Assembly (NCBI RefSeq): GCF_001428895.1
Contig: NZ_LMJA01000030.1
Span: forward strand, 222,896-286,895
Length of the DNA: 64,000 nt
Source: Mycobacterium sp. Root265
GTDB lineage: Bacteria; Actinomycetota; Actinomycetes; Mycobacteriales; Mycobacteriaceae
Reading direction: 5' to 3'
The position numbers and the translations under genes are program-made. Positions 10,896 through 58,134 of this stretch are shown in pieces (the stretch's first letter is position 1; each line of letters opens with the position of its first letter). A model generated the notes under the pieces. The model searched no databases. It saw only the letters and a program-made list of their open reading frames with translations, and was not told where the DNA came from.

Positions 10896-10902
10896 GCCGC
10901 CG

Positions 10903-10908: not shown

Positions 10909-11017
10909 TCGGGCGCCGCGTCAACCAGACGAGACAGCGAGGTCACATCACCGAAACGCAGCTTTGGTTTCCTGAAGGGCAACGTCGTCAACCACTGGTG
11001 TCCACGGGAAAGGGCTC

Positions 11018-11557
11018 ATGCGACCGGACCTCGAGCTGACAAGTGTGCCCGGATGGGCACTGACCCCCACCCGACCCGATGCTGATCTGTCCGGGCGTGC
11101 GTGGACCATCATCGCGTTCGGGCCGGGCGGCGCCGATGTCGCACGGGACTGGGTAGCCCAGATCGACTCGGCCGGTGGTGAATCGGCGGTACGCCTGCAC
11201 CAGGTCGACGCCGGGCAGGCGATCGAGGTGCTGACGGCCGACCTGGCCGATGCCCGGGTGGGCTGGCGGTTGATGATGGCCGGCCCCGCCGACGCCTGCC
11301 TGCACCTGCGCGGCGCCGCGACGGGCCTCGGTGTCGCCGACGACGAGATGACGGTGGCGTCCACCGAGGTCGATTCACGCGCGGTGCACTGTGTGCACTG
11401 CGGGGCCGTCACCCGGGCGCGGGTCCAGCTGGACGAAGTGCTGCCGTGCGGATCGTGCGAGCGGAAACTCCTGGTTTATTACCATGTTTCGCGTCGCGGC
11501 GGAACATATCTGGGCTTCATGGTCGATGCCGAAGAGCCGGCCGGGGCCGTCTCGTGA
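11018..11557 (+). CDS. dmmA: Dimethylamine monooxygenase subunit, DmmA family
   Basis: A 179-residue protein ending in a four-cysteine, zinc-ribbon-like element (HCVHCGAVTR near residue 128, then CGSCERKLLVYYHVSRR). I recognise the family from its context: it is followed without gaps by a ferredoxin-type reductase and a DUF3445 haem-type oxygenase, the set that demethylates dimethylamine in methylotrophs. ATG 11018 follows GGGAAAGGG. The next gene starts inside its stop (GTGA). The family name is inferred from length, Cys pattern and neighbours, so moderate confidence. Confidence 0.65.
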   Translation: MRPDLELTSVPGWALTPTRPDADLSGRAWTIIAFGPGGADVARDWVAQIDSAGGESAVRLHQVDAGQAIEVLTADLADARVGWRLMMAGPADACLHLRGAATGLGVADDEMTVASTEVDSRAVHCVHCGAVTRARVQLDEVLPCGSCERKLLVYYHVSRRGGTYLGFMVDAEEPAGAVS

Positions 11558-12489
11558 ACACTCTCAAACTCGTCGTCACCGCGGTCGATGACACGATCGG
11601 CGGCATTCGGACCCTCACCCTGGCCTACCCCGACGGGGCGGCCCTGCCGTCGTTCACGCCCGGCAGCCACATCGTCGTGGACTGCGGTGGCAGTGCCAAC
11701 GCCTATTCACTGACCGGCGATGGTAATTCGCCTACCGCGTATGTGATCTCGGTGCTGCGCTGTGACGAGGGCGCCGGGGGCTCGCGGTGGATCCACGACG
11801 AGCTGGCGCTGGGCGACACCGTCGCCGCCGGACTGCCGCGCAGCGCGTTCGCTCCGGTGCTGCGGGCGCGCCGGCACCTGCTCGTCGCCGCGGGCATCGG
11901 CATCACCCCGATGGTGTCGCACCTGCGCAGCGCGCAGCTGTGGGGACGGGACGTCCGGGTGCTCTACATCCACCGGGAGGGCCGGGCGGCCTACGCTGAC
12001 GTCGTCGCAGGACTCGGCGAGCACGCGTCGATGCATACTGCGCGTGCGGCCTTCACCGACGAGCTGCTGGCCGCGCTGGCCGACCAACCCTTCGGCACCC
12101 ACCTCTATGTGTGCGGACCGGCCTCGTTCATCGAGTACGTCACCGGTGCGGCCGCGGATCTGGGATGGCCGGCCAGCCGGATTCACCTGGAACACTTCGG
12201 ATCCGACGCGCTCGATCCGGGTGAGCCGTTCGCGGCCCGGGTCACCTCCACCGGTGAGGAGTTCGTCGTCGACGCCGGTGTCTCGCTGCTGGAGGACTTG
12301 GAGCGCCGTGGCTTCGAGGTGCCCAATTTGTGCCGCCGGGGGGTGTGCGGAGAATGCCGACTCCCGGTCTCGGCCGGAACGATCACCCACCGCGATCTGT
12401 ACCTGACCGACGCCGAGAAGGAGGCCGGCGACGCGCTGATGGCCTGCGTGTCGCGCGGTGGCGACGAAACCCTGGAGGTAGCACTGTGA
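11554..12489 (+). CDS. PDR/VanB-family oxidoreductase (reductase of the N-demethylase)
   Basis: A 311-residue electron-transfer protein passing reducing equivalents from NAD(P)H to the oxygenase. Domains in order: flavin-binding barrel with NAYSLTG (normally RxYS), NAD-binding domain with LLVAAGIGITPMVSHLR and YVCGPASFIE, and a C-terminal plant-type [2Fe-2S] ferredoxin with CRRGVCGEC (CX4CX2C) and the fourth Cys in LMACVSR. GTG 11554 overlaps the previous stop by four bases, and the next gene starts the same way, so the three genes form a tight operon. Confidence 0.85.
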   Translation: MNTLKLVVTAVDDTIGGIRTLTLAYPDGAALPSFTPGSHIVVDCGGSANAYSLTGDGNSPTAYVISVLRCDEGAGGSRWIHDELALGDTVAAGLPRSAFAPVLRARRHLLVAAGIGITPMVSHLRSAQLWGRDVRVLYIHREGRAAYADVVAGLGEHASMHTARAAFTDELLAALADQPFGTHLYVCGPASFIEYVTGAAADLGWPASRIHLEHFGSDALDPGEPFAARVTSTGEEFVVDAGVSLLEDLERRGFEVPNLCRRGVCGECRLPVSAGTITHRDLYLTDAEKEAGDALMACVSRGGDETLEVAL

Positions 12490-13460
12490 TCTCGACACCC
12501 GATCTCGTTCGTACCTTTCCTTTCCCGTTCGCCGCGGACACCTACCGCTACAGCACCAATGTCGAGCCCGCAGGCTCGGCGGTCCCCACCCCGGTCGGGC
12601 GCTGGGGTGAGCGGGTGGTCGATGTCGACAGCGAATACGAACACGAACTGGCCGAGCGGGCAGCCGTTCTCGCGACCGATCCCACCCGCAGCGCGGTGCT
12701 GCCACACATGCGCCCAGCCTGCTGGGACGCCATGCTGACCCTGATGCGCGAGCTCGCGAGCGGCTACCCCGACAGCATGTCCCTGCAGCGACACGGCACC
12801 GGGTGGCGCTGGCGCAACGACAGACTGGGCATCGAACAGGACTTCATCCTCGGCGATGAGAGCACGCTGCCCGCCGAACCGCTTGCCTATATCGCCGGCC
12901 AGGTGCAGGAGGACATCGTCCTGCTCGACCAACGCGACGGTGACCTGTTCGGTGACGCCGGCGTGGTCACCTTCGCCGCGGACTGGTCGTTCGGGTTCGA
13001 CGTCGGCATGACGTTTCTGGAGATCCACGGGCCGGTGCCCCGGCTGCGGGCCACCGGCGTCATCACCCGCGCCAGGGATTTCCTCATGCGGTTGCAGCCC
13101 GGTGAGACCTACCGGCGCACCAACTGGACGTTGACCATCGGTCGCCGCCTTGACGTCTCGACCGAGCTGTATCACGAGTGGGGGCCCGACCGCACGATGA
13201 TCAACGGCGTCACCGACGAGGAGTTCGGTCGGCTGGTGCATCTTCGGGTCGAGGTGCAGCACCTGATCCGGTTGCCGGAGTCGGGGTCGATCTGCTTCCT
13301 GATCCGCACCTATATGTTGCCGCTGGCCGATATCGCCGCCGTCGACGCCTGGCGGGTGCGCGCGGCGGCGGTGCTGGCCGAACTGCCCGAGGACATCGCC
13401 GACTACAAGGGCATCATCGGGTACCGCGACCGTGCGGTCCAGTGGCTGCGGTCCGCCTGA
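12486..13460 (+). CDS. DUF3445 haem-dependent oxidative N-demethylase-type protein
   Basis: A 324-residue protein of the DUF3445 family, the oxygenase-type partner in dimethylamine monooxygenase systems, which converts dimethylamine to methylamine and formaldehyde. Features seen are the opening FPFPF segment, the central GVVTFAADWSFGFDVGMTFLEIHGPVP region, NWTLTIGRR, and conserved RVEVQHLIRLPESGSICFLIRTY. GTG 12486 overlaps the reductase stop (GTGA). It ends the operon; a perfect palindrome follows. The convergent ammonium-transporter gene suggests nitrogen scavenging. Substrate is inferred from context only. Confidence 0.75.
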   Translation: MISTPDLVRTFPFPFAADTYRYSTNVEPAGSAVPTPVGRWGERVVDVDSEYEHELAERAAVLATDPTRSAVLPHMRPACWDAMLTLMRELASGYPDSMSLQRHGTGWRWRNDRLGIEQDFILGDESTLPAEPLAYIAGQVQEDIVLLDQRDGDLFGDAGVVTFAADWSFGFDVGMTFLEIHGPVPRLRATGVITRARDFLMRLQPGETYRRTNWTLTIGRRLDVSTELYHEWGPDRTMINGVTDEEFGRLVHLRVEVQHLIRLPESGSICFLIRTYMLPLADIAAVDAWRVRAAAVLAELPEDIADYKGIIGYRDRAVQWLRSA

Positions 13461-43719: not shown

Positions 43720-45164
43720 TGGTCTCCCGCCGGACCCGCCCGCCGCAGCCGCTGGCCCCCAACGGAATCCCCGGACACCTGGTGGAGTTCGTGGAGGCGT
43801 TGCGCGGTGTGGGCATCGCGGTGGGTCCATCGGAGACGGTGGACGCCGGCCGGGTGATGACCGTGCTCGGGCTGGGCGACCGGGAGGCCCTGCGCGAAGG
43901 CCTGGCGTGCGCGGTGCTGCGCCGCGCCGACCATCGCGACACCTACGACGCCATGTTCGACCTGTGGTGGCCGGCCGCGTACGGCGCGCGGACCGTGATC
44001 GACGAGGAACCCGATCCCGAGGCCGGCCCGGAGGGGATGCCGCCCGAGGACATCGAGGCGATGCGCGCGGCACTGATCGACATGCTGGGCTCCGACAGCG
44101 ATCTGGAGAACCTCGACGACCGGTTGGCCGCCATGATCGCCCGGATCGTGGAGGCCTACGGCCGGTACAACTCCAGCCGCGGCCCCTCGTACTCGTCGTA
44201 TCAGGCACTCAAGGCGATGGCGCTGGACGAGCTGGAGGGACGCCTGCTGGCCGGGTTGCTCGCGCCCTACGGCGAGGAACCGACTCCGACCCAGGAGGAG
44301 ATCGCCAAAGCGATGGCCGCGCAGCGTGTTTCGCAGCTGCGCCGGATGGTGGAGGCCGAGACCAAGCGGCGCACCGCCGAACAGCTGGGCCGCGACCACG
44401 TGCAGATGTACGGTGTGCCGCAGCTCGCCGAGAACGTGGAGTTCCTGCGCGCCTCCGGTGAACAGCTGCGCCAGATGCGCAAGACCGTTCAGCCGCTGGC
44501 CCGCACGCTGGCCACCCGGCTGGCCGCCAAGCGGCGGCGGTCCGCGCACGGCCAGATCGATCTGCGCAAGACGCTGCGCAAGTCGATGTCGACCGGCGGC
44601 GTACCCATCGAAGTCGTCCTCAAGAAGCCACACCCGGCCCGGCCGGAACTCGTGGTGCTCTGTGACGTCTCGGGCTCGGTGGCCGGTTTCAGCCACTTCA
44701 CGCTGATGCTGGTGTCGGCACTGCGCCAGCAGTTCTCTCGGGTACGGGTGTTCGCCTTCATCGACACCACCGACGAGGTGACCCACATGTTCGGGCCGGA
44801 CGCCGACCTGGCCGTCGCCGTGCAGCGCATCACCCGCGAGGCCGGCGTCTACACCCGCGACGGGCACTCCGACTACGGGCACGCGTTCGTGTCGTTCGCG
44901 CAGAACTTCCCCAACGTGCTGTCGCCGCGTTCCTCGCTGCTCATCCTCGGTGACGCCCGCAACAACTACCGCAACCCCGAGACCGAGCTGCTGACCCGGA
45001 TGGTGAACGCCAGCAGGCACGCACACTGGCTGAACCCCGAACCCAGGCACCTGTGGGGCAGCGGCGACTCCGCCGTCCCGCGCTACACCGACCTGATCCC
45101 GATGCACGAATGCCGGTCGGCCAAGCAGCTTGCCGCGGTGATCGACGCCCTGCTGCCGGTCTGA
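43719..45164 (+). CDS. CoxE-like von Willebrand factor A domain protein
   Basis: A 481-residue partner of the MoxR ATPase. The C-terminal VWA domain carries the metal-ion-dependent adhesion motif [12 protein letters not shown] (DxSxS, at about residue 313) and later [12 protein letters not shown]. The N-terminal half is helical and charged, with a [22 protein letters not shown] region typical of CoxE-like proteins. Translation is coupled to the MoxR gene by a one-base overlap. Corresponds to Rv2425c. Confidence 0.88.
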
Positions 45165-45200
45165 CCCGTCGGCACGTTCGAGCGGCCCCGAACCCTGCCG

Positions 45201-45206
45201 TAAGCT
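45201..45206 (+). promoter_or_regulatory. -10 element for nadD
   Basis: TAAGCT lies eight bases before GTG 45215; no ribosome site in the gap. Leads the nadD-rsfS-gpgP-octT-degV operon. Confidence 0.4.
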
Positions 45207-45214
45207 GGCTCTTC

Positions 45215-45877
45215 GTGGCAGCACGGCGCAGGTTGGGTGTGATGGGTGGGACGTTCGATCCCGTGCATCACGGACATCTCGTGGCTGCCAGTGAAGTGGC
45301 CGATCAGTTCGAGCTCGACGAGGTCGTCTTCGTGCCGACCGGGCAGCCCTGGCAGAAGCGCGAACGCCACGTCACCGCCGCCGAGGACCGCTACCTGATG
45401 ACGGTCATCGCCACCGCGGCCAACCCGCGGTTCTCGGTGAGCCGGGTCGACATCGAACGCGGCGGCGCCACCTACACCAAGGACACCCTGCGCGATCTCG
45501 CCGCCCAGAATCCCGACACCGACCTCTACTTCATCACCGGCGCGGACGCGCTGGCCTCGATCCTGTCCTGGCAGAACTGGGAGGAACTGTTCTCCCTGGC
45601 CCGTTTCGTCGGGGTGAGCAGGCCCGGCTACGAACTCGACGGCGAGCACATCGCCGAGGCCATGAAGGAACTGCCCGAAAACGCCCTCACCCTGGTGGAG
45701 GTACCCGCATTGGCGATCTCGTCGAGTGACTGCCGGCTGCGTGCCCAGCAGTCCCGGCCCATCTGGTACCTGGTGCCCGACGGTGTCGTGCAGTACGTGT
45801 CCAAACGCAACCTCTACCCCGCATCGGCGGGCAGGGGCGCAGCGACCGGGGACAACGAACAGGAGACACCTTCATGA
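45215..45877 (+). CDS. nadD: Nicotinate-mononucleotide adenylyltransferase
   Basis: Adenylates nicotinate mononucleotide in NAD synthesis, the step before NadE; 220 residues. Motifs: [19 protein letters not shown] (contains the HxGH nucleotidyl-transfer signature) and the C-terminal ISSSDCR. GTG 45215 gives [12 protein letters not shown], matching the M. tuberculosis N-terminus; later starts would remove the first strand. The C-terminus extends about 20 Ala/Gly-rich residues past the core. Overlaps rsfS by four bases. Confidence 0.95.
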
Positions 45878-46260
45878 CCGCCACCCAGGAAGCCATCGAG
45901 ATGGCCACCGTCGCTGCCCGCGCCGCCGCGGACAAGCTCGGCAACGACGTCCTCGTCATCGACGTATCCGAGCAGTTGGTCATCACCGACTGCTTCGTGA
46001 TCGCCTCGGCGTCCAACGAACGTCAGGTCAACGCGATCGTCGACGAGATCGAGGACAAGATGCGCGCCGCCGGGCACAAGCCCGCGCGCCGCGAGGGCAC
46101 CCGGGAAGGGCGCTGGACCCTGCTCGACTACGTGGACATCGTGGTGCACGTCCAGCACACCGACGAGCGCGAGTTCTATGCGCTGGAGCGGTTGTGGCGG
46201 GACTGCCCGGTCGTGCCGGTGGATCTCGAAGCCGGTGACGCGCCGCAGGACGGCGAGTGA
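45874..46260 (+). CDS. rsfS: Ribosomal silencing factor RsfS
   Basis: Binds L14 on the 50S subunit and blocks subunit joining in starvation; 128 residues. The DUF143 core shows [26 protein letters not shown] and [22 protein letters not shown], followed by [12 protein letters not shown]. Starts inside the nadD stop (ATGA), and its own stop overlaps gpgP (GTGA). Confidence 0.95.
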
Positions 46261-46913
46261 GCGTGCGCCGGCTGGTGCTGTTGCGCCACGGCCAGACCGA
46301 GTGGAACGCCGGCAGCCGGATGCAGGGCCAGCTCGACACCGATCTGACCGACCTGGGGCGCGAGCAGGCCAATGCGGCGGCCGAGGTGCTGGCCAAGCGC
46401 CAGCCCCTGGTCATCGTGTCCTCGGATCTGCGTCGTGCCCTGGACACCGCCACCGCACTCGGCGAGCGATCCGGCGTCGAGGTGTCCGTCGATGAACGCC
46501 TGCGCGAAACCCATCTGGGCGACTGGCAGGGCCTGACCCACCTCGATGTCGACGCGGTGGCGCCGGGTGCCCGGCTGGCCTGGCGCGATGACGCCCGGTG
46601 GGCCCCGCACGGCGGTGAGAGCCGGGTCGACGTCGCGCAGCGCAGCGTCCCGCTGGTCACTGAAATTCTTGCCGCGCAGCCGGGCTGGGGTGCAGACGAG
46701 CCCGACCGCCCGGTGGTGCTGGTGGCGCACGGCGGACTGATCGCCGCGCTGACGGCCGCACTACTGGATCTGCCGGTGGACAACTGGCCGGTGCTGGGCG
46801 GTATGGGCAATGCCAGTTGGGCGCAGCTGTCCGGCCACGATGTGGGCGACACCATCAAGTGGCGCCTGGACGTGTGGAACGCCTCGGCGCAGGTGGCCAA
46901 CGATGTCCTCTGA
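46257..46913 (+). CDS. gpgP: Glucosyl-3-phosphoglycerate phosphatase
   Basis: Dephosphorylates glucosyl-3-phosphoglycerate to glucosylglycerate, the second step toward methylglucose lipopolysaccharide. A 218-residue histidine phosphatase: RHGQTEWN with phospho-acceptor His11, the acid catalyst region [10 protein letters not shown], and the second His in VAHGG. The gpgP call rests on family plus position before octT (Rv2419c/Rv2418c order); by sequence alone it is a phosphoglycerate-mutase-like phosphatase. Overlaps octT by 11 bases. Confidence 0.88.
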
Positions 46914-47652
46914 CAGCCCCCGCCGGAATACACTGCTGGTCTTTTGCGATTCGCTGTCCTACTACGGCCCGACCGGCGGACTGCCCGCCGACGATCCCAG
47001 GATCTGGCCGAATATCGTTGCCGAGCAACTCGGTTGGGATGTCGAACTGATCGGCCGGATCGGGTGGACCTGCCGCGACGTGTGGTGGGCGGCCACCCAG
47101 GACCCGCGTTCCTGGGCGGCTCTGCCGCGCGCCGGAGCGGTGATCTTCGCGACCTGCGGCATGGATTCGCTGCCCTCGCCGCTGCCCACCGCGGTGCGCG
47201 AACTGATCCGTTACGTCCGGCCGCCGTTCCTGCGCCGGTGGGCCCGCGACGGTTACGGCTGGCTCCAGCCGCGACTGTCCCCGGTGGCGCGACCGGCGCT
47301 GCCCCCGCACCTCAGCGTGGAGTACCTGGAAATGACCAGGGCCGCCTTGGATTTCAACCGACCCGGGTTGCCCGTGGTCGCCACCATTCCCTCGGTGCAC
47401 ATCGCCGAGACCTACGGCAATTCGCACCGGTGGCGTGAGCCCATCGTCAAGGCCATCACCGGCTGGGCCGACGAGCATCAGGTGCCCGTGGTGGATCTGA
47501 AGGCCGCCGTCGGTGCGGAAGTGATGAGCGGGCGGGGCAACCCCGACGGCATCCACTGGAACTTCGAAGCGCACGCCGCGGTGGCCGACCTGATGCTCAA
47601 GGGTCTCGCCGAAGCCGGTGCGTACCAACCGGACACCTCCGACCGGTCATGA
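46903..47652 (+). CDS. octT: Diglucosylglycerate octanoyltransferase (SGNH fold)
   Basis: Transfers octanoate to diglucosylglycerate in methylglucose-lipopolysaccharide synthesis. 249 residues with an SGNH/GDSL fold: nucleophile Ser17 in [21 protein letters not shown], and the C-terminal Asp-His in [12 protein letters not shown] 46903 overlaps the gpgP stop. Its place between gpgP and degV is that of Rv2418c, the characterised enzyme's orthologue. Confidence is from context plus motifs. Confidence 0.85.
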
Positions 47653-48488
47653 CCGTCCAGGTGGTGACGGATTCGTCGTCACGGCTCAGTCTGGACGAAC
47701 TCAAGCAGTGGTCGATCCGCCAGGTGCCGCTGCATGTCCTCGTCGACGACCTCGACCTGCGCGACGGCATCGACGACATTCCCAACGACGTGTTCGACCG
47801 CAGCCAGGTGACGACCTCGGGGGCCTCACCGGCAGACCTGGCGCAGGCCTACCGGGAGGCATTGGCCGACAGCGACGGTGACGGTGTGGTCGCGGTACAT
47901 CTGTCGGCGGCACTGTCCAGCACGTTCAGTTCCGCCGCGGCGGCCGCCAGGGAATTCGGTTCGGCTGTGCGCGTGGTGAACACCCGGTCGGCGGCCATGG
48001 GGGTCGGGTCCGTCGCACTGGCCGCGGCGCGCGCGGCCGCGGCCGGTGCCGAACTCGACGCCGTCGAAGCCACGGCCCGCGCCGCCGTCCCACGGGGGCA
48101 CGTGTTCATCGTCGTGCACCGCCTGGACAACCTGCGCCGCAGCGGGCGCATCGGCACCGCGGCCTCCTGGCTGGCCACCGCGTTGTCGGTCAAGCCGCTG
48201 CTGCACCTGGACGTCGACGGCCGGCTGGTGCTGGCGCAGCGGGTACGCACCGTGTCCAAAGCGCATGCCGCCATGGTGGATTCGATCGCCGAGGTGGTGG
48301 GGGAGCGCTCCGCCTCGATCACCGTGCACCACGTGGACAACCACGATGGCGCCGCCGAGCTGGGTGCGGCGCTGACCGCGCGGCTACCGCAACTGGAGTC
48401 GCTGACGGTGCGCGATATGGGTGCGGTGCTGGCCGTCCACGTGGGTGCCGGCGCCGTCGGTGCGTGCGTCAGCCTCGCCGAGACCTAG
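47649..48488 (+). CDS. DegV-family fatty-acid-binding protein
   Basis: A 279-residue DegV protein that binds a fatty acid between its two domains. Signature [14 protein letters not shown] at the N-terminus, [11 protein letters not shown], and [17 protein letters not shown]. The C-terminal domain holds [14 protein letters not shown]. Translationally coupled to octT (ATGA). It corresponds to Rv2417c and ends the nadD operon, meeting the reductase gene with a four-base convergent overlap. Confidence 0.92.
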
Positions 48489-49531
48489 CCGGCGAAGCGA
48501 CCGGTCACCGGCGGCAGATCCTTGAGGGTGGCGATGCCCGGGGCGGCGGCGACCACCGCGGGCACCGCGTTGGTGACCGGCATGGCGGTGTAGATCATGC
48601 CCAGGCCCATGAATCCCGGTTCGGTCCAGTCCTTCGGCGGCAGGCAGTGCAATACGGTGCGCATATTCGGTAGGCCGAACACCTGGATGACGTGGCCGTG
48701 CTCAAGCGGTTTGGGCGGCGTGACATGGTCACCCATCGTCCAGTTGAACCCCACGCTGACGACATTGCGGTCGCCGACCCAGCCGCGGTGATAGCCGAGC
48801 ACGCTGGCGACGGTGCCCTTCGGGATCGTCATGAAACCGAGGTCGGAGTCGCCGGTCGCGGCGGTGAAGGTGACGTCGAAGGTCATCCGGTCCAACCTCG
48901 CGCCGATCGCGTCGGCCATCATTGCTGCGGATTCGGCGAACACCTCACTTTCCCGGCGCACGCTCTCGGCCAGCCCCGGGGTGTCCGGGTCCTGCGAGAA
49001 TCCCATGGCGGTCTGGGTTTCCGCGGATTCGTAGGTCGAGCAGTCCACCGACTCGGTGATCCTGATCTCATCGACCCGCTCGCACGAGCCCGACAACACC
49101 ATGCCGACCATGTTGGTCATGCCCGGGTGTGCGCCGCTGCCGAAAATGGTCGAATTACCGGCCGCGCAGGCCTTTCTGATGCGATCCAGATCCTCGGGCG
49201 TCTGCTTGCCGCCGGTGATCCAGGCCGCACTCGAGCAGACGTTGACGCCGGCCTCGAGCAGCGCGACGAGTTCGTCGACGCTGGGCCACAGCGGGTTGTA
49301 GCAACAGGCATCCGGCTTGAGGGCGATCAGCGCGTCGATGTCGTTGGTGGCCTTGACGCCGGTCGGGGTCGGCCAGCCGGCGAGTTCGGCGGCATCGACT
49401 CCGACCTTGTCTGCCCCGTGGGCGTAGACGCCGACGAGTTCCATGTCGTCGCGACCGATGATGGCGTGCAGCGAGCGGGTGCCGATGTTTCCGGTGGTCC
49501 ACTGGATGACGCGGAGGGGAGTCTCACTCAT
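48485..49531 (-). CDS. Dihydrodipicolinate-reductase-like NAD(P)-dependent protein
   Basis: A 348-residue protein starting VIQWTTGNIGTRSLHAII, a dinucleotide-binding segment of the DapB-N type common in mycobacteria (the 'amine dehydrogenase/DHDPR-like' family). Central FGSGAHPGMTNMVGMVLSG and GYHRGWVGDRNVVSVGFNW are conserved features. Real substrate unknown; true DapB is shorter and lies elsewhere. The minus-strand -10 TAGTGT, seven bases before the ATG, lies within a palindromic operator, so it is regulated and leaderless. Confidence 0.82.
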   Translation of the reverse strand: MSETPLRVIQWTTGNIGTRSLHAIIGRDDMELVGVYAHGADKVGVDAAELAGWPTPTGVKATNDIDALIALKPDACCYNPLWPSVDELVALLEAGVNVCSSAAWITGGKQTPEDLDRIRKACAAGNSTIFGSGAHPGMTNMVGMVLSGSCERVDEIRITESVDCSTYESAETQTAMGFSQDPDTPGLAESVRRESEVFAESAAMMADAIGARLDRMTFDVTFTAATGDSDLGFMTIPKGTVASVLGYHRGWVGDRNVVSVGFNWTMGDHVTPPKPLEHGHVIQVFGLPNMRTVLHCLPPKDWTEPGFMGLGMIYTAMPVTNAVPAVVAAAPGIATLKDLPPVTGRFAG

Positions 49532-49534
49532 GGC

Positions 49535-49560
49535 GTGAACACTATTCCGACAGTGTTCAC
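49535..49560. promoter_or_regulatory. Palindromic operator over the reductase promoter
   Basis: GTGAACACT (49535-49543) and AGTGTTCAC (49552-49560) are perfect 9-base arms separated by eight bases. The -10 TAGTGT (49544-49539, minus) overlaps the left arm. Typical of a TetR-type repressor; none is encoded next to it. Confidence 0.65.
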
Positions 49561-49592
49561 CGCGGTCCGGAAAAGGGTGAAATGATCGTGGG

Positions 49593-49994
49593 ATGGCTCT
49601 GGATACCGGTTCGGTGCAACGCTGGTTCGACGACTACCTCGCGGTGTTCGCGGCGGCCGTGCGTGGCGAACGCTCGATCTCGGCGCTGCTGGACTGCTAC
49701 GCCGTCCCACTGACCCTCACCACCGATGAGGGCGCGATCAGCCTGGCCACCAGCGACCAGCTCGCCGCCGTGATCCAGGGCCAGGTCGACGGGTTACGTG
49801 CCCAGCGTTATCACCACACCACGCTGTCCAATGCCGAGGTGACGGTGCTCAACGGTACGTCGGCGCTGTACCGGGGAGCGTTCGTGCGCCACGACGCCGA
49901 CGGTGCCGAGCTGGGCCGGGTCGCGGTGACCTACCTGCTGATCGACGGCCCGGAGGCCGCACAGATCGCGGTGCTCGCTTCGCACGGCGACTAG
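49593..49994 (+). CDS. Small NTF2-like (SnoaL-type) protein
   Basis: A 133-residue protein with an NTF2-like pattern: an N-terminal helix pair (VQRWFDDYLAVFAAAVRGER), a short linker (LDCYAVPLTLTTDEG) and antiparallel strands (EVTVLNGTSALYRGAFVRHD, RVAVTYLLID). No catalytic residues are assigned. ATG 49593; no clear ribosome site, and AATGAT six bases upstream might serve as -10. Its stop overlaps the large CheB-CheR-GGDEF-EAL gene convergently by four bases. Function unknown. Confidence 0.75.
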   Translation: MALDTGSVQRWFDDYLAVFAAAVRGERSISALLDCYAVPLTLTTDEGAISLATSDQLAAVIQGQVDGLRAQRYHHTTLSNAEVTVLNGTSALYRGAFVRHDADGAELGRVAVTYLLIDGPEAAQIAVLASHGD

Positions 49995-52900
49995 GTCGGT
50001 CGAGACTCGATCCAGTCGATCAACGCTGCCAGCGGCATCGGCGCGGCCAGAAAATAACCCTGTGCCAGCTCGGCGCCGAGTTCTTTGGCGTAGGTCCACA
50101 TGTGCTCGTCGGCGATACCTTCAATGACGACCCTCGCCTCCATAGCATGAGCGAGTTGCACTGAGGCCGTAAGGATTTTGGCGGCTCGGCCGCCGACCTC
50201 GACGGCTCGCTGGATCATGGACTGATCCACCTTGATGATGTCCGGCTGAAGACGATCGAGGGTTTCCAGATTGGAATAACCGGTTCCGAAGTCGTCGACA
50301 CTGATGGTCGCGCCAAGGCGGCGGAGCACCGAAAGGGTGTGGATCGCCCGCCCCTCGGGAGCCAGCAGCACCGATTCGGTAACCTCGGCGATGACGCGTT
50401 CGAACCCGCCCGCGGGATTCCAGGTCAGCAGCCGTTCGGCGGTGTCGCGCTCCTCGAGTTCGACACCCGAGAGGTTTACCGCCATCAGGGGTTGGCTCTC
50501 GCCGAGGCGATGGTGCAGACGGGTGATGTCCGCATCGAGCAGTTTGAGTACGATTCGGCCGATAGCGCGCAGTTGGCCGGTATCCAGCGCGTGCGTGATA
50601 AAGGTATCGGCGGTGGCCAGTTCACTACCTCGGCGCCATCGCAACAGTGCTTCGACATGGGCGAGCTGGCCGGTTTCCACGTCGATCACCGGCTGGTAGT
50701 GCAATTCGAAGTCACCGGCGCGCACCGCCCCTGCCAGCTCGCGGCGTAACTCGGCGCGCTCGTCGGCACGGTCGTTCATGTCCTGGGTGAAATAGGCATG
50801 CCGGTCACCGCCCTGGCTCTTGGCCGCGTACATGGCGGTATCCGCATTGTCCAGAAGTTCCTCAGCGGTACGACCGTCCTGCGCGTGCACGGCGATGCCC
50901 ACCGATGCCGACACATAGGCCAGCACACCGTCGATGGCCACGGGTTCCCGCACGGCAGTGGAGATCCGGTGGACGAGTGACTCGATGCTGTTCACATCAT
51001 CGACGTGGGTGATGAGCATGGCGAACTCGTCGCCGCCGAGTCGCCCGATGACGTCGTGGCGACGTGCAGCGCGCTGCAGCCGGCCGGCGATTGTTGCCAG
51101 CACCGCGTCTCCGCTGCGGTGACCGAAGCGGTCGTTGATCGCCTTGAATCCGTCCAGGTCGATCCAGAGCACGGCAAAGCCCGACGTGCCCGAAGATGCC
51201 AATTCGTCGGTACGCGAACGGAAGTACGTTCGAGTCAAGAGCCCGGTCTGCTGATCGAACTGTTCGCGCGCGGCGAGGTCGGCACTCACCTGGCGCAATC
51301 TGGTCGCGTCGTGCAGCAGGGCAACCCGCGCGGGCACAGTGTCCGGGTCCGCGGCGTCGGAGGTGATCACAGCGACCGTCTCGATGCTCACCGCCCGGTA
51401 CGTGCCCTCCGGGCCGAGGATCCGTCGCGCATCGAGGGCCAGGCCGGTCGTGGACGGTGCGAGCAGCGATGCGGCCGGGTCGTGTTCGAGGAGCACGTTC
51501 AGTGGGGTTCCGATCATCGCCTCGGGTGAGTACCCGATGATCGCGCCGACCGATCCACTGGCCTGCAGGACGCGATCGTCGGCGTCGAGCACGAGCACGC
51601 CGACGGTCTCGGTGCTCAACAATGCTTCCAGGACGGCGGTTCGACCGGCGGCAGCCGACTGCAGACGATGCCGGTCGGTGACGTCGAGCGCACTTCCGGT
51701 GATCGACGGGACGCCGTGGACCGCGCTGTCGGTGTGGATCGCAGACTCATCGATCCAGCGAATGGTGCCATCGGGCCGGATGATTCGGTATTCGAGTTGC
51801 CAGCGGCGGTCGGTGCTCGCCATGGCTGCAGCCACTCGGTCTCGATCAGCGGGATGTATTGCGGCAGTCAGCAGTCCAGGGTCCGCCAGCACGCGTTCCC
51901 GAGCCAGTCCGTAGATGTCTTCCACCCTTTTGGTGACATAGATCAGCGCGCCGGAATCATCGCGCTGCCAGACGAGTTCGCGTACGGATTCGGCGACCGT
52001 CTCGAGGTTCGCCAGCGCGTGTTCCCGTTCGCGTTGGGCCTGCGCGATGTCGCTGACGTCGATGACCACCACCAGTGCACCGAGCACCTCGCCCGACGAG
52101 CCCGTATAGGGTTGCAGTTGCAGCAGGAAATCGCGGGTCTCGTCGTTCAGCTCGATGAGTCGTGATGCCCTGGTGGCCATGGTTTCACGTAGGTCCATCG
52201 CCAGGCTGGGCACCGCGATCGTGGTGGGCACAGAGGGCAGTGGGCGGCCGATATCCTCCTGAATCAGGGAGAACACCCGCACCGCCAAAGGGCTGTACCG
52301 CACGATTCGCAGCTCGTGGTCCACCATGACCAGCCCGCTGGTCATCGAGGCCTGGATGTTCTCCAGATCGGTGTTGGCGCTGCTGAGTTCGGCGCCGCGT
52401 GCCTCCAGTTGCTGGTTGAGGGTGGTGAGTTCCTCGTTCGCCGTCTCGAGTTCCTCATTGGTGGCTTGCGCCTCCTCGGAGGTGGCTTGCAATTCTTCGG
52501 AACTGGCCTGTAGTTCCTCGTTCAGCGCTTGTAGTTCTTCGTTGGAGTGGCTCAGATCGTCGATGGTGGCCTGCAGCGCATCATGAGCGGCTTCGAGCGC
52601 CGCACTGAGCGGTGAGGAGTCCGGGTCGATGACCACCGGTGGTTCGGACGTCTGGAGTGCCGCCGCGCGGAAGCTGATCACCGCGCCGATCCCGTCGGCG
52701 AGCACCGGGATGAGGCTGACCTCGACGGAGCCGTCAGCACCCGTCGAGACCCGGCGTAAGGCCGCGGTGCCGGCACCCTGCCGGATCTGGCTGAGCATGG
52801 TGCGCACCGCCAACCGGTAGGGCTCACGCAACATCTCGGTGACATGACCCGAGTGACGCCCTTCGCCCAGTGCGCACCAATCGGATACGTCGCCGATCAC

Positions 52901-54514
52901 CTCGATGAGCGTGTCGTCGTCGTCGAGCACCAACGACGGTGCCGCCAAGGTGCGCAACAGCCTGCGGTACATGGCGGGGTTGTAGGCGTGGCGCGGCAAG
53001 GCGACTGCAGCGTTCGGTGCGGGCAGCGCCGTTTGATAGCGCCCGTGGGGGAGAGGTGCCGGTGTCGCGGATTCCAGGCGTCGGTAGATGCGGTGACCGT
53101 CGCCCGTAGCGGAGAACAGCGAATCCACTTGCGGTACTTGTTCGGATTTGCCGAGGATGAGCAACCCGTCGGGCAACAGGGCGAACTGGCACAGTCGCAG
53201 CACCCGGTCCTGAAGGTGCGGCTGAAAGTAGATCATGGTGTTACGCAACGAGATCAGGTGCAGCCGTGGGAATGGTGGGTCGTATGCGACGTTGTGCGTG
53301 GCGATCACGACGCATTCCCGCAGAATCGGCGACACCTCCCACTCGCCGTCGACCGAGCGCATCCAACGGTCGCGCAGTGGTGCTGGTACCGCTGCGACCG
53401 ATTCTTCCGAATAACGCGCTCGCCGCGTCGCCGTGAGACCACGTTCGTCCAGGTCGGTGGCGAAGATCTTGAGTCGCCGGGGAAGATCGCCGGGGCCGGC
53501 GTCCAGTGCGTCGGCGGCGAGCATGGCAACCGTGTAGGCCTCCTCGCCGCTGGCACACCCGGGCACCCACATCCTCAGTTGGGTGTTCGGTGGGAGCTCG
53601 CCGACAGCTTCGCGGAGCAGGACCGACAGCGCTTCCCATACCGGCGCATCGCGGAAGAAGGCCGTCACACCGACCAGGATGCCGCGACTCAACATCGCCG
53701 CCTCGGCGGGGTCCGAGGCGAGGCCGAGGACGTAGTCGGCAGGTGTCTGGTCGGCGATCCGCTGGCGCCGCTCGATCTGCCGGCGCACGGTGGTCCTCTT
53801 GTAACCGGAGTAGTCGATGCCGGTCGCCGAATGCAACGCCACGATCGCCGCTTCGACCGCGGAATCGTCGAGTGCCACCCCGGTGGACCGCTCCGGCTGC
53901 ACCTCTCCGGCAGAGGACGGGTGAACGGTGAGGATGTTCGCCAGCGCCGCCGGGATGTCGTGCGGTGGCAACTGCAGGTCTGTCGACCCGGTGGCATACG
54001 CGGCACCGGGCATCGAGCCGAACGCTGCGCTGGCCTGATCCTGGATGATGACGACGCCCCCGGCAGCCGTGACCGCCTCCACCCCGGCCGCGCCGTCCTC
54101 ACCCGTGCCGGACAGCACCACGGCCACGGCTTCTTCGCCGAGGGCAAGCGCGGCCGAGATGAACAACCGGTCGATGCTCGGCCATGGACGGCGATCTTCG
54201 TCGGGCGCGACGAGGTTCACGGTGATGGCGTTCGATGCGGTCGCGCTGACCGTGATGTCGGTCCTGGGTGGAGTCACGAACACCATGTCCGGTCCGAGCG
54301 CAAGTCCGTCAGTGGCTTCCACGACCCGCAGCGAGGTGGACCGGGTGAGCAGGGACGCCAGGGCACTGGTGTCGTCCGGCGCCAGATGCTGCGCGATGAC
54401 GAAGCACCATCCCAGCCCCGGATGCGCGGCTCCGAGCAACTGCTTCAGGGCGTCGAGGCCACCTGCGGAACTTCCCACCACGATGACCCGCGAAGCATGG
54501 TCATCGTCGGGCAT
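49991..54514 (-). CDS. CheB-CheR-PAS-GGDEF-EAL fusion (methylation and cyclic-di-GMP signalling protein)
   Basis: A 1507-residue cytoplasmic protein without transmembrane segments. Domains: CheB methylesterase (about 1-195; Ser16 in GSSAGG, His43 in AQHLAP, Asp140 in GTGEDG); CheR methyltransferase (about 215-480; SAM site VPGCASGEEAY at 317-327, ISLRNTMIYF); PAS-like segment (about 510-620); long coiled coil of NEELQA/EELETA repeats (about 645-720); three PAS domains (about 720-825, 835-950, 955-1075); GGDEF (about 1088-1240) with GGDEF at 1160-1164 and inhibitory-site RxxD at 1151-1154; EAL (about 1255-1500) with EAL at 1288-1290, Asn1347, Glu1377/Glu1380, DDFG at 1407, Lys1428, Glu1465 and QGY at 1485. 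All catalytic motifs look intact. There is no receiver or kinase domain. GGGAGAGGC precedes the ATG. Confidence 0.93.
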   Translation of the reverse strand: MPDDDHASRVIVVGSSAGGLDALKQLLGAAHPGLGWCFVIAQHLAPDDTSALASLLTRSTSLRVVEATDGLALGPDMVFVTPPRTDITVSATASNAITVNLVAPDEDRRPWPSIDRLFISAALALGEEAVAVVLSGTGEDGAAGVEAVTAAGGVVIIQDQASAAFGSMPGAAYATGSTDLQLPPHDIPAALANILTVHPSSAGEVQPERSTGVALDDSAVEAAIVALHSATGIDYSGYKRTTVRRQIERRQRIADQTPADYVLGLASDPAEAAMLSRGILVGVTAFFRDAPVWEALSVLLREAVGELPPNTQLRMWVPGCASGEEAYTVAMLAADALDAGPGDLPRRLKIFATDLDERGLTATRRARYSEESVAAVPAPLRDRWMRSVDGEWEVSPILRECVVIATHNVAYDPPFPRLHLISLRNTMIYFQPHLQDRVLRLCQFALLPDGLLILGKSEQVPQVDSLFSATGDGHRIYRRLESATPAPLPHGRYQTALPAPNAAVALPRHAYNPAMYRRLLRTLAAPSLVLDDDDTLIEVIGDVSDWCALGEGRHSGHVTEMLREPYRLAVRTMLSQIRQGAGTAALRRVSTGADGSVEVSLIPVLADGIGAVISFRAAALQTSEPPVVIDPDSSPLSAALEAAHDALQATIDDLSHSNEELQALNEELQASSEELQATSEEAQATNEELETANEELTTLNQQLEARGAELSSANTDLENIQASMTSGLVMVDHELRIVRYSPLAVRVFSLIQEDIGRPLPSVPTTIAVPSLAMDLRETMATRASRLIELNDETRDFLLQLQPYTGSSGEVLGALVVVIDVSDIAQAQREREHALANLETVAESVRELVWQRDDSGALIYVTKRVEDIYGLARERVLADPGLLTAAIHPADRDRVAAAMASTDRRWQLEYRIIRPDGTIRWIDESAIHTDSAVHGVPSITGSALDVTDRHRLQSAAAGRTAVLEALLSTETVGVLVLDADDRVLQASGSVGAIIGYSPEAMIGTPLNVLLEHDPAASLLAPSTTGLALDARRILGPEGTYRAVSIETVAVITSDAADPDTVPARVALLHDATRLRQVSADLAAREQFDQQTGLLTRTYFRSRTDELASSGTSGFAVLWIDLDGFKAINDRFGHRSGDAVLATIAGRLQRAARRHDVIGRLGGDEFAMLITHVDDVNSIESLVHRISTAVREPVAIDGVLAYVSASVGIAVHAQDGRTAEELLDNADTAMYAAKSQGGDRHAYFTQDMNDRADERAELRRELAGAVRAGDFELHYQPVIDVETGQLAHVEALLRWRRGSELATADTFITHALDTGQLRAIGRIVLKLLDADITRLHHRLGESQPLMAVNLSGVELEERDTAERLLTWNPAGGFERVIAEVTESVLLAPEGRAIHTLSVLRRLGATISVDDFGTGYSNLETLDRLQPDIIKVDQSMIQRAVEVGGRAAKILTASVQLAHAMEARVVIEGIADEHMWTYAKELGAELAQGYFLAAPMPLAALIDWIESRPT

Positions 54515-54838
54515 AGGCGAGCCTCTCCCGCAATTTGACGGTGTTGATCATTTTCAATGTAACAGCCGTTTCGACGCCCAGACGCACGAATTCGCGCGTG
54601 CAGAAGCGTACGCGGCGGCGTTGCGGCGAGGCGCGCCACGCCGGCGGCTCCCGGTCCCTGATCCGTGTCGTGCCGGGATGTGCACGCCTGGCCTCAGTTA
54701 ATGGTCTGCGCCTCATTCGTTGTTCGAATCGGAGGCAAATCGGTGCCGCTCATTCACAATGCCGGATTCATCCACAGCCTGACCCGTGACGGCCGGCGAC
54801 GAGCTCGGTAGGTCGGTCCAGATGCCTACCGTCGGCTC
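54515..54838. other. Divergent promoter region between the signalling fusion gene and comEA
   Basis: A 324-base non-coding gap. Leftward: TACATT (54561-54556, minus) could be the -10 for the fusion gene, giving a leader of about 35 bases that includes GGGAGAGGC. Rightward: the comEA leaderless promoter (separate entry). ATTCG-N5-CGAAT (54715-54729) is a small inverted repeat. The interior 54600-54700 is GC-rich with no supported gene. Confidence 0.5.
54806..54832 (+). promoter_or_regulatory. comEA leaderless promoter with inverted repeat
   Basis: TACCGT (54827-54832) lies six bases before ATG 54839. CGGTAGG (54806-54812) and CCTACCG (54825-54831) are perfect inverted arms 12 bases apart, and the right arm overlaps the -10, suggesting repression. 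Confidence 0.5.
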
Positions 54839-55651
54839 ATGGATACCGAATCGCCTGCACAGCGTCTGACGCGGCGCATCGGCACCGACCGCGACGCGGC
54901 AACCGAAGTGCCGGAGGAAGAATCGGACACCGCCCTGGCCAGGTGGCTGCCCGACGGTGACAGTCGCTCCGCGCGGGACTGGCTCGGTGCGTTGCGGGCC
55001 GATCCGGGTCGCGCCGGTGTGATCGCGTTGCTGGGCGTCGGGATCATCGCCGTGCTGGTGACGGTGTTCACGGTGATGCGCGATTCTCCGCCGCCGGTCT
55101 CCTCGGCCAATCTTCCTGCCGTGCAGATGGTTTCCTCGGCGAGCGCCACCCCCGGACCGCCGGCGCCACCGGATGGGCCGGTGGTGGTCAGCGTCGTCGG
55201 TCTGGTCAACACGCCGGGACTGGTGACGCTGACGCCGGGGGACCGGATAGCCGACGCGCTGGAGGCCGCCGGTGGCTCGGTGGACGGCGCGGATCTGGTC
55301 GGGCTGAATCTGGCGCGCCGCGTGGTCGACGGCGAACAGATCATTGTCGGGTTGGCCGCCCCGGCAGGATCGCCGTCACCGATGGGCAGTTCGGTGAGTT
55401 CGGCGACTCCGGCCGAGCAAGCCGCCCCGGCGGCACCGGCCGCAACCGCTGTGCCCGGGGGACCTGTCGATCTGAACACCGCGACCCCCGCGGATCTCGA
55501 CGCGCTGCCCGGGGTCGGCCCGGTCACCGCCGCGGCGATCATCGCGTGGCGCGAGGCCAACGGGAAGTTCACCAGCGTCGACCAACTCAGCGAGGTGGAC
55601 GGCATCGGTCCGGCGCGCCTGGACAAGCTGCGTGACCTGGTCGATGTGTGA
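54839..55651 (+). CDS. comEA: ComEA-family helix-hairpin-helix DNA-binding protein
   Basis: A 270-residue membrane-anchored DNA-binding protein. After a charged N-terminus, one transmembrane segment spans about residues 60-78 (VIALLGVGIIAVLVTVFTVM); an SLBB-type domain follows (VVVSVVGLVNTPGLVTLTPGDRIADAL), then a Pro/Ala linker and two HhH motifs at the C-terminus (DLNTATPADLDALPGVGPVTAAAII and DGIGPARLDKLRDL) that bind double-stranded DNA. Overlaps comEC by four bases (GTGA). Natural competence is not established in most mycobacteria, so the role is uncertain. Confidence 0.9.
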   Translation: MDTESPAQRLTRRIGTDRDAATEVPEEESDTALARWLPDGDSRSARDWLGALRADPGRAGVIALLGVGIIAVLVTVFTVMRDSPPPVSSANLPAVQMVSSASATPGPPAPPDGPVVVSVVGLVNTPGLVTLTPGDRIADALEAAGGSVDGADLVGLNLARRVVDGEQIIVGLAAPAGSPSPMGSSVSSATPAEQAAPAAPAATAVPGGPVDLNTATPADLDALPGVGPVTAAAIIAWREANGKFTSVDQLSEVDGIGPARLDKLRDLVDV

Positions 55652-57162
55652 ACCCCGAAGAACGCCAGGTGGATATCCGGCTGGTCCCCGCCGCGGTGAC
55701 CAGCTGGACGGTGACCGCCGCCGGAATCCTCTTCTCACCCTCGGTCATCGTGGCGATCGTGGTCAGCACCATCGCGGCGACGGCGCTGGCCGGACGGTGG
55801 TGCGCCCGGCGCGGGATCCGGCTGGGGGTGGCCGGGGTGGCCGCGGTCGCGGTGATCGGCACGGCGTTCGGCCTGTCGATCGCGATGCGTGCCCACGACG
55901 TGCGGCAGCACCCGATTGCCGCACGCCACGGCCACACCGCCACCGTCGGTGTGGTCCCCACGGAGTCACCGCGCTCATTGGGGCAGGGCCGCATCATGTT
56001 TCGGGCCGGGTTACGCGAGCTCGACGGCAGCCCGCTGAGCGGGATGGTGCTCGTCTTCGCGCCGGTGACGGATTTCGCCGCACTGACCGTGGGCCGCCCG
56101 GCCACCTTCCGGGCCCGCATCGGTCGTCCACTGCGGCGCGATCTCAGCGTCGCGGTGCTCACCGCGATCGGTGAGCCGACGCTCGGAGCCGTACCGAGGG
56201 TGCGCCGGCTGTCCGGGCACATCCGCTCGGAATTCGCCGAAACGGCCCGCCGGGTGCTGCCCGCCGATCAGGCCGCGATGCTGCCCGCCCTGGTGCTCGG
56301 CGACATGTCGGCGGTCACGGCGACGACGGTCGACGACTTCAAGGTCGCGGGCCTGACCCATCTGACCGCCGTGTCGGGCGCCAACGTCACCATCGTGTGC
56401 GGCACCGCCCTGCTGTCGGCCGCGGTGATCGGCCCCCGGCTCGCCGCGCTGCTGGCATTGGTGGTGCTGATCGGGTTCGTCGTCGTGGTCGAACCGTCGG
56501 CGAGCGTGCTGCGCGCGGCCGTCATGGGCGGCATCGCGCTGCTGGCGGTGCTGACCCACCGCCGGCGGCAGGCCATCCCGGTGCTCTCGGCCAGCGTCAT
56601 CGCGCTGATGTCGGTGGCCCCGCAGTTGGCCGTCGACGCCGGCTTCGCGTTGTCGGTGGTGGCGACCGCAGCCCTGGTGGTGGTCGCCCCGATGTGGTCG
56701 GCCCGGCTGATCGAGCGCGGGTGGCCCACACCACTGGCGGCGGCGGTGAGCATCGCACTGGCCGCTCAGCTGGTCACCGCCCCGCTGATCGCCGGGATCT
56801 CGGGTCGGTTCAGCGTGCTCGCGGTGCTGGCCAATCTGGTCGTGGCCGCCGTGGTCCCGCCGATCACGGTGATCGGCACCGCCGCGGCAGCACTGTCGGC
56901 GTTCTCGCCGACGGGTGCGGGCCTGCTGATCCGGTTCACCGGGCCGGAGCTGTGGTGGTTGCTGACGGTGGCGCACCGCATCGCCGCGGTGCCGGGGGCG
57001 TCGGTCACCGTTCCGTCCGGCGCCGCCGGCATGGCATTGGTCACCACGGTGAGCATCGTGGCGATCCTGAGCTGGCGCCGGCGGTGGGGCCGGATGCTGA
57101 GTGCCGGCGCGGCGTGTTGTCTGCTGGCCTGGACCCTCTCCGGTGTTGTCGCCGCGGCGTGA
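55648..57162 (+). CDS. comEC: ComEC/Rec2-family membrane channel protein
   Basis: A 504-residue polytopic membrane protein. Two N-terminal hydrophobic spans and a DUF4131-like soluble region (about 60-190) precede the competence domain (from about 205, LPADQAAMLPALVLGD and LTHLTAVSGANVTIVCG) with many membrane helices to the end. It lacks the C-terminal metallo-beta-lactamase nuclease domain of full ComEC (about 750 residues), a trait shared by actinobacterial short forms. GTG 55648 overlaps comEA. A DNA-uptake role is inferred from family only. Confidence 0.88.
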   Translation: MNPEERQVDIRLVPAAVTSWTVTAAGILFSPSVIVAIVVSTIAATALAGRWCARRGIRLGVAGVAAVAVIGTAFGLSIAMRAHDVRQHPIAARHGHTATVGVVPTESPRSLGQGRIMFRAGLRELDGSPLSGMVLVFAPVTDFAALTVGRPATFRARIGRPLRRDLSVAVLTAIGEPTLGAVPRVRRLSGHIRSEFAETARRVLPADQAAMLPALVLGDMSAVTATTVDDFKVAGLTHLTAVSGANVTIVCGTALLSAAVIGPRLAALLALVVLIGFVVVVEPSASVLRAAVMGGIALLAVLTHRRRQAIPVLSASVIALMSVAPQLAVDAGFALSVVATAALVVVAPMWSARLIERGWPTPLAAAVSIALAAQLVTAPLIAGISGRFSVLAVLANLVVAAVVPPITVIGTAAAALSAFSPTGAGLLIRFTGPELWWLLTVAHRIAAVPGASVTVPSGAAGMALVTTVSIVAILSWRRRWGRMLSAGAACCLLAWTLSGVVAAA

Positions 57163-57174
57163 AACGATCCTTGG

Positions 57175-58134
57175 GTGACCGACACCGCGGAATTGCACCT
57201 CGTCCTCGGCGATGAGGAACTGCTCGTCGAGCGTGCGGTGGCCGGCGTGCTGAAAACAGCCCGGAAGAAGGCCGGCACGGTCGATGTCCCGGTGGACCGG
57301 TTGCGCGCCGGTGAGGTCAGCACCAGCGAGCTCGCCGAGCTGCTGAGCCCGTCGCTGTTCGCCGATGAGCGGGTGGTCGTGCTGGAATCCGCCGGTGAGG
57401 CGGGCAAGGAGGCGGCGTCGCTGATCGTCAGCTCGGCAGCAGACCTGCCGCCGGGCACCCAGCTGGTCGTGGTGCACTCCGGCGGCGGACGCGCCAAGGC
57501 GATGGCCGACCAGCTCAAAAAGCTTGGTGCTCAGGTGCATCCGTGCGCGAAGATCGCCAAGCCCGCCGAACGCGCCGATTTCGTGCGCCGCGAGTTCCGG
57601 TCGCTGAAGGTGAAGGTCGACGATGACACCGTCTCGGCGATCCTCGATGCGGTCGGTTCGGACATCCGGGAGCTGGCGGCGGTGTGCTCACAGCTCGTCG
57701 CCGACACCGACGGCACGGTGGACGCCGCAGCGGTGCGCCAGTACCACCAGGGCAAGGCCGAGGTGAAAGGTTTTGACATCGCCGACAAGGCCGTCCTCGG
57801 TGACGTGTCCGGGGCGGCGGAGGCGCTGCGGTGGGCGATGCTCAGCGGAGAACCCCACGTGGTGCTCGCCGATGCGCTGGCCGAGGCGGTGCACACCATC
57901 GCCAGGGTGGGCCCGATGCGGGGTGACCCGTACCAGTTGGCCGGGGAACTGGGCATGCCGCCGTGGCGGGTGCAGAAGGCGCAGAAGCAGTCGCGGCGTT
58001 GGTCGCCCGACCGGGTGGCCGAGGCACTGCGGGTGGTCGCGTCGTTGAACGCCGACGTCAAGGGCGCGGCGGCCGACGCGGATTACGCGCTGGAGGCCGC
58101 GGTGCGCAAGGTCGCCGAACTCGCTACCGACTGA
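57175..58134 (+). CDS. holA: DNA polymerase III subunit delta
   Basis: Clamp-loader subunit that opens the beta clamp, 319 residues. The N-terminal segment [20 protein letters not shown] and the central [14 protein letters not shown] region are characteristic of HolA; the C-terminal domain has [24 protein letters not shown] 57175 lies 12 bases after the comEC stop, so it is probably in the same transcript. The DELTA-type order comEA-comEC-holA-rpsT is common in Gram-positive bacteria. Confidence 0.92.

Follow-up and report, generated by a model that had tools for sequence, protein, structure and literature searches.

A mycobacterial CheB-CheR-PAS-GGDEF-EAL protein carries a conserved glutamate array that may be the methyl acceptor of its own CheR

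Hybrid CheB-CheR proteins as such are already known. In the CheB-CheR-PAS hybrids closest to the protein considered here (for example, at our loci L122, L130 and L083) CheB, CheR, a coiled coil and a PAS_10 domain follow one another in the same order. A connection between methylation and cyclic di-GMP (c-di-GMP) is also on record: CheR-TPR and Wsp-type pathways control c-di-GMP by linking receptor methylation to a GGDEF output (PMC3447774), and these pathways are multi-protein systems with chemoreceptors and phosphorylated response regulators. Here we describe a protein, P0001, that has neither and consists of a single chain. Its gene lies in a 64,000-nucleotide stretch of the genome of Mycobacterium sp. 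Root265 (contig NZ_LMJA01000030.1, positions 222,896–286,895), referred to below as the window, and is a single unbroken ATG-to-stop frame of 1507 amino acids (aa) on the minus strand (window 49991–54514). Whereas the hybrids named above end in HisKA-HATPase-receiver or in PAS domains alone, the output of P0001 is GGDEF-EAL. We give slightly better than even credence to the view that a methylation-adaptation circuit of the kind found in methyl-accepting chemotaxis proteins (MCPs) has been built into one c-di-GMP enzyme. In the open-access literature, to which our search was confined to the exclusion of subscription papers, neither this architecture nor the glutamate array reported below was found to be described.

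The Pfam families assigned to P0001 all exceed their own curated cut-offs, and the order CheB-CheR-PAS-GGDEF-EAL in one chain, first read from the bare letters in what we call the original prediction, was borne out by the domain search. The full order is CheB, CheR, a hidden PAS domain, a long helix, three PAS domains, GGDEF and EAL, and the extent of the gene (all features lie on the minus strand) agrees with the open reading frame, the Pfam matches and 11 full-length orthologues. The CheB methylesterase domain (CheB_methylest, residues 11–191, E = 1.9e-47; window 53942–54484) matches 3sft in Foldseek with a target template modelling (TM) score of 0.90. The CheR methyltransferase covers residues 217–479 (53078–53866; CheR_N 226–262, CheR 283–470, E = 5.9e-37) and matches 5ftw with a target TM-score of 0.87. 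No receiver domain precedes CheB, which starts at residue 11; Response_reg is absent from the best 25 of 39 Pfam families. At the other end of the chain, the GGDEF diguanylate cyclase domain with its RxxD inhibitory site (residues 1086–1237, E = 3.8e-41; 50804–51259) is followed by the EAL phosphodiesterase domain (residues 1258–1492, E = 6.6e-52; 50039–50743). PAS-GGDEF-EAL enzymes (PDB 5m3c, DosP) are similar in this part, with 5m3c aligning to residues 1086–1496 (E = 1.1e-68), whereas P0001 has the additional CheB and CheR domains in front and a methylation-type helix.

The region between CheR and the output was examined in an AlphaFold2 model of residues 1–840, built on an alignment of 68 relatives (mean predicted local distance difference test score, pLDDT, 86.2; predicted TM-score 0.64). 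Its secondary structure fits CheB at residues 9–196 and CheR at 217–479. A PAS-like fold at residues 513–617 (52664–52978), not among the Pfam matches listed, is suggested by the modelled secondary structure and by Foldseek matches to tandem PAS domains. One continuous helix with heptads of the coiled-coil type spans residues 650–723 (52346–52567). Confidence is low for residues 620–658 (pLDDT below 50), and block means are 73–86 from residue 661 onward. The helix leads into the PAS_10 domain (Pfam residues 717–820, with modelled strands and helices at 726–819; 52055–52366), behind which Pfam places a PAS domain matched by PAS_9 (851–946) and PAS_3 (858–928; 51677–51964) and another whose best stretch is residues 962–1012 (51479–51631). 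With CheB, CheR, the coil and PAS_10 following one another in one chain, P0001 is a member of the CheB-CheR-PAS hybrids.

The catalytic residues of all four enzymatic domains are in place. In alignments to the Escherichia coli K-12 proteins, S164/H190/D286 of CheB fall on S16/H43/D140 of P0001, the triad that had been named from the letters, and R98/E129/D154/N212/R230/N231/Y235 of CheR fall on R288/E325/D354/N408/R424/N425/Y429; R98 and Y235 are key CheR residues in S. typhimurium according to PMC3447774. P0001 further keeps the GGDEF motif, the RxxD site (R1151..D1154) and all eleven EAL positions checked. Residues were then compared across 13 rows (P0001, its 11 full-length orthologues and P0002, a paralogue in the same genome). 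Invariant in all 13 were the CheB triad, R288/E325/D354/R424/N425/Y429 of CheR, all GGDEF residues and the eleven EAL positions, and the nine CheB and CheR residues among these did not vary in a 68-row alignment either; E324 (Q in two of the 13 rows), Y327 (F in two), N408 (D in one) and T137 (S in two) did vary. The earlier statement that CheR, GGDEF with RxxD and EAL are intact, not degenerate, is upheld by these comparisons. By its residues P0001 looks like a bifunctional GGDEF-EAL enzyme, and both activities are predicted.

The long helix carries a putative methyl-acceptor array, namely four consecutive E-E-x-x-[AST]-[AST] heptads (residues 666–692; window 52439–52519) with Glu pairs at 666/667, 673/674, 680/681 and 687/688. 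In the MCPs Tsr and Tar of E. coli, E-[EQ]-x-x-[AST]-[AST] likewise recurs at seven-residue spacing on a long helix; P0001 differs from them in having neither MCPsignal nor CheW and in holding the modifying enzymes in its own chain. As a control, the same expression was run on Tsr, which it matched at 296, 303, 310 and 492, and on Tar, which it matched at 294, 301 and 308. The matched Tsr pairs contain Q297, E304, Q311 and E493, which we take to be four of the five known methylated sites, and the sites in register share their seven-residue spacing with the array of P0001. Methylation consensus sites in a seven-residue register are therefore present on the (modelled) helix of P0001. The strict run of four heptads recurs in 11 of 11 orthologues, and P0002 has a run of three. 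Among 80 CheB-CheR loci, drawn from 165 confirmed relatives in a scan of titled genomes, a run of at least three was found in 72; if only the 72 frames scored as extending 250 aa or more beyond CheR are considered, 69 have it. Such runs are rare elsewhere. In a background of 2310 stop-to-stop frames of at least 200 aa (840,213 aa, with some genomes counted twice) three or more such heptads in a row occurred in only six frames: two were further CheB-CheR proteins (a tandem CheB-CheR-GGDEF-EAL copy in Thiocystis and one protein in L146) and four overlapped or adjoined a broken CheB-CheR frame (L060 among them), leaving none among the 2310 that was unrelated to CheB-CheR.

Conservation of the array was assessed in the 68-row alignment, for which sequences were chosen without the array expression. 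It comprises P0001 and P0002, the 11 orthologues and a further 55 rows from the 80 loci; duplicates from one genome were excluded, as were frames that were short and, in the interval from L083 to L097, seven loci with even numbers. With the heptad register fixed by taking Leu as position d, positions b and c, where the Glu pairs lie, are expected to be exposed, an expectation that comes from the register and not from computed exposure. Mean entropy was 0.10 bits at b and 0.15 at c, against 0.88 at core position a, 0.46 at d and 1.0–1.4 at e, f and g. Of the eight array glutamates (666–688), six never vary in the rows that have a letter there, and the other two are conserved at 99%; Glu 694 and Glu 695 follow with 94% and 97%. 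In a plain coiled coil the core is expected to be more conserved than the surface. The array shows the opposite order, its Glu pairs (b and c) being more conserved than the core positions a and d.

The coil was also searched on its own, as a 93-residue query against 346 genomes of the phylum. This gave 31 matches in 30 genomes. For 25 of the matches (24 loci and P0002) the frame also contains CheR, and 17 of the 25 show a run of at least three; in one other (L187) CheR occupies the adjoining frame. In each of four mycobacterial loci in which CheB is a separate gene (L197–L200), the frame with CheR carries an array of five. According to Pfam, the gene order in two of these sets is CheB, a STAS protein and then CheR-PAS-coil-PAS (L197:6964-11527, L199:6054-9761). 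The split sets resemble P0001 in their CheR-PAS-coil module with its array, and differ in having separate genes, a STAS partner and no GGDEF-EAL in their frames. In these split sets the coil stays with CheR while CheB is separate, and over all matches the array travels with CheR and not with a particular output. In L197 the set is followed, on the opposite strand, by another CheB gene.

A conventional acceptor for the two enzymes was sought in the whole genome (6.67 Mb, listed as 100% complete). MCPsignal and CheW gave 0 matches each, while the controls of both searches matched in 7 of 14 genomes. CheA had no search of its own, and a CheW-like domain is part of canonical CheA. CheB and CheR match nowhere in the genome but in P0001 and P0002. 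The lack of a chemoreceptor, noted earlier for the vicinity of the gene, thus extends to the genome, and ordinary chemotaxis, which would have spoken against the original prediction, does not explain the protein. This genome, and probably those of other non-chemotactic bacteria, has CheB and CheR but no chemoreceptor, and the array is a specific candidate for the missing acceptor. The genome also gave 25 GGDEF matches, more than the few known for M. smegmatis.

Taken together, these data suggest the following scheme. The PAS domains would read a cytoplasmic cue and set the balance of the bifunctional GGDEF-EAL output, and the helix, which we presume to be dimeric, would carry the signal from PAS to GGDEF-EAL. 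CheR of the same protein may methylate the paired helix glutamates, in cis or between protomers, with E667, E674, E681 and E688, which come second in their pairs, as the best candidates, and its CheB may remove the methyl groups. Methylation of the helix would then shift or reset what the PAS domains transmit to GGDEF-EAL and provide adaptation or memory for the c-di-GMP output. Domain order, intact catalytic residues, conservation, the absence of MCPsignal and CheW, and the association of the array with CheR are observed; from these we infer methyl transfer, its reversal, the effect on c-di-GMP turnover and the PAS cue. The original idea that the coil is the methyl acceptor is strengthened by the family-wide array and its conservation, whereas self-methylation and the coupling to c-di-GMP stay at the level of a proposal. 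If true, adaptation by methylation would not be confined to chemotaxis but would also operate in the c-di-GMP signalling of bacteria, mycobacteria among them.

Several observations weigh against this scheme. Eight of the 80 CheB-CheR frames have a run below three: L074, L103, L112 and L120 do not extend as far as the coil, and in L137, L139, L140 and L145 the run is limited to two. In the coil search the run was only two in 8 of the 25 matches with CheR (L177, L183, L186, L188, L190, L191, L193, L195), so the long array is not universal in CheR-coil proteins. Five coil matches with NEEL-type heptads have no visible CheR (L172, L194, L196, L175, L189); the first three resemble other signal proteins, the last two sit at contig ends, and a strict run of at least three occurs only in L175. 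The expression is itself imperfect, matching E. coli Tap only at 292 and 306 (two of three register sites) and missing E502, presumably the fifth methylation site of Tsr. MCP methylation sites are Glu or Gln, whereas the array positions are almost always Glu in the 68 rows, a set that was assembled with CheR patterns derived from P0001 relatives and is not a random sample. CheB of P0001 lacks the receiver domain that controls canonical CheB, and with no MCPsignal hairpin the known mode of MCP output coupling does not apply. Finally, Asp1154 of the RxxD site is kept in 10 of the 13 rows and lost in three.

In the main rival reading the coil serves only for signalling and dimerisation between PAS domains, and CheR and CheB act in trans on another protein, such as P0002 or a coil-bearing signal protein. 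The NEEL heptads of signal proteins in which CheR was not seen (L172, L194, L196) and the eight short runs beside CheR would fit such a division of labour, and the 25 GGDEF matches of the genome mean many possible partners. We nevertheless consider it unlikely: a plain coil should conserve its core, whereas in this one conservation is highest in the b and c Glu pairs; the coil search of the own genome returned only P0001 and P0002 (E ≤ 1e-6, 15 of 33 candidates scored); and a separate CheB gene does not part the array from CheR. Less likely still is that CheR and CheB are non-catalytic, with CheR as a sensor of S-adenosylmethionine (SAM) and CheB as a scaffold, together tuning GGDEF-EAL. SAM-binding domains can act as sensors, and this CheB has no receiver and so would not be regulated by phosphorylation, yet the CheB triad and the six CheR residues are invariant in both alignments, which speaks against loss of catalysis. 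CheB and CheR are core chemosensory enzymes, but a role in ordinary chemotaxis or in an alternative chemosensory pathway whose receptors and CheA lie elsewhere is very improbable and was rejected, as the genome has no MCPsignal or CheW match; nor does a receiver precede CheB in P0001.

In order to see how widely the architecture is distributed, CheB was searched in a genus sample, where it matched in 137 of 298 genomes. Among the matches listed, the frames are mostly of about 200–650 aa, with single longer ones of 871 aa (G002) and 1099 aa (G057), and frames of about 1500 aa occur only in the own genome (two) and in G152. The CheB-CheR part (E ≤ 1e-60) matched in 12 of 401 genomes of the family sample, the own genome included and 4 of 31 genera represented, and in 1 of 348 genomes of the order sample, which is the own genome; both counts are lower bounds, about four candidates per genome having been scored. 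Thirteen regions were fetched (the 11 others of the family sample, G152 and G057). They include 11 full-length orthologues, ten from the family sample and that of G152, with 51–68% identity end to end; the remaining locus of the family sample (L060) is broken into three frames, and G057 gave only a CheB-like match of 36% identity. M. sediminis (L071) has a twelfth orthologue with 65% identity. Conservation of this kind shows that the frame of P0001 has not arisen by chance. The possibility that P0001 is a lone oddity of the strain was rejected on the 12 family genomes and the 11 orthologues.

Among the 80 loci, scored with profiles built from P0001 and its orthologues, GGDEF and EAL are in the CheB-CheR frame in 28. 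These comprise Mycolicibacterium sp. P1-18, M. sediminis, Rhodococcus/Rhodococcoides, Williamsia and Acidimicrobiaceae, other actinobacterial or unassigned metagenome-assembled genomes (MAGs), and Synechococcus, Cyanobium, Chthonomonas, Thiocystis violacea and Bryobacter. The architecture is thus widespread but patchy, and it is not special to this mycobacterium. Ten C-terminal parts were analysed with Pfam: two have GGDEF-EAL (L131, L132), two HisKA-HATPase-receiver (L122, L130), one PAS and a receiver (L139) and five PAS alone. A tandem pair of CheB-CheR-GGDEF-EAL genes is found in Thiocystis violacea (L132:1200-6716 and 7905-12548). The copy of Williamsia herbipolensis (L060:8634-13137, and L074) is split into three frames by gene decay or sequencing errors. 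A locus titled Bifidobacterium breve MAG (L094) has a CheB-CheR frame of 1116 aa, the cyanobacterial length class, and is possibly mislabelled or from a mixed bin.

We tentatively suggest, at somewhat less than even confidence, that CheR-PAS-coil proteins form a large self-methylating class, with the adaptation machinery in a single chain or in a pair of CheB and CheR genes and with exchangeable outputs (c-di-GMP enzymes, histidine kinases, STAS), and that P0002 is an adapting, phytochrome-gated light-to-c-di-GMP switch. General self-methylation, if proved, would go beyond a variant of the known hybrids. P0002, encoded on contig 22 of the own genome (L003:8246-12709, minus strand), has the architecture of P0001 at 32% overall identity. 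Its gene overlaps by ATGA that of P0003, the pair spanning L003:6783-12709. P0003 is a stand-alone bacteriophytochrome sensory module (PAS_2-GAF-PHY, 488 aa) with no output domain among its Pfam matches; it has Cys9, which we take to be the chromophore Cys, and PASDIP and PRRSF, which we take to be phytochrome motifs (the latter as PRxSF). Because its gene adjoins this module, P0002 at least is probably not a self-contained switch of the kind that the original prediction proposed. A phytochrome partner was found for P0002 only, none being present among the seven neighbours of P0001 scanned; PHY matches once more in the genome, in a frame of 771 aa that shares the contig of the window but lies about 100 kb outside it. 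Counting against a role of light, no match to Heme_oxygenase (PF01126), the one oxygenase type searched as a source of biliverdin, was found in the genome.

PHY occurs in 69 of 248 mycobacterial genomes, and the other frames below 600 aa among the matches listed (G170, G137) are cut PHY only; in a class sample of 335 genomes the other PHY frames listed have at least 666 aa, except for one partial match in a 458-aa frame. Among the 80 loci, three have a stand-alone phytochrome module directly after the CheB-CheR gene (stop-to-stop L122:12743-14284, L130:12721-14412 and L135:2993-4723), in records titled Bacteriovoracaceae, Bdellovibrionaceae and Silvanigrellales; inspection by eye, without a Pfam scan, showed no output domain. 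At L144 a phytochrome frame of 847 aa, with extra sequence after PHY that looks kinase-like by eye, lies about 1.5 kb upstream.

The neighbourhood of the P0001 gene (window 45053–58134) has CTP_transf_like, GDSL and DegV genes and a DUF6841 gene on one side and, on the other, an SLBB/HHH gene with a Competence (ComEC-type) gene behind it; M. tuberculosis presumably has eis in the corresponding interval. It points to no functional partner: the ten window neighbours matched in none of nine ortholog loci (two of the nine being the same contig), whereas P0001, as a control, matched in all nine, and the window is absent from the 25 largest groups; groups are common mainly to five related loci. The lack of shared neighbours fits a gene that moves on its own. 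Third-position GC is 0.785 in P0001 and 0.79–0.92 in nine of the ten neighbours. A plasmid origin was considered as well: none of 72,556 plasmid records matched P0001 at E ≤ 1e-100, the only limit tried, yet the contig of its closest named relative, in Mycolicibacterium sp. P1-18, is titled plasmid pMYP1-18.1. Near P0001, a 297-aa frame (window 48692–49585) with no Pfam match and a low third-position GC of 0.61 may be foreign or may not be a gene, and it faces a 348-aa frame on the opposite strand (48485–49531).

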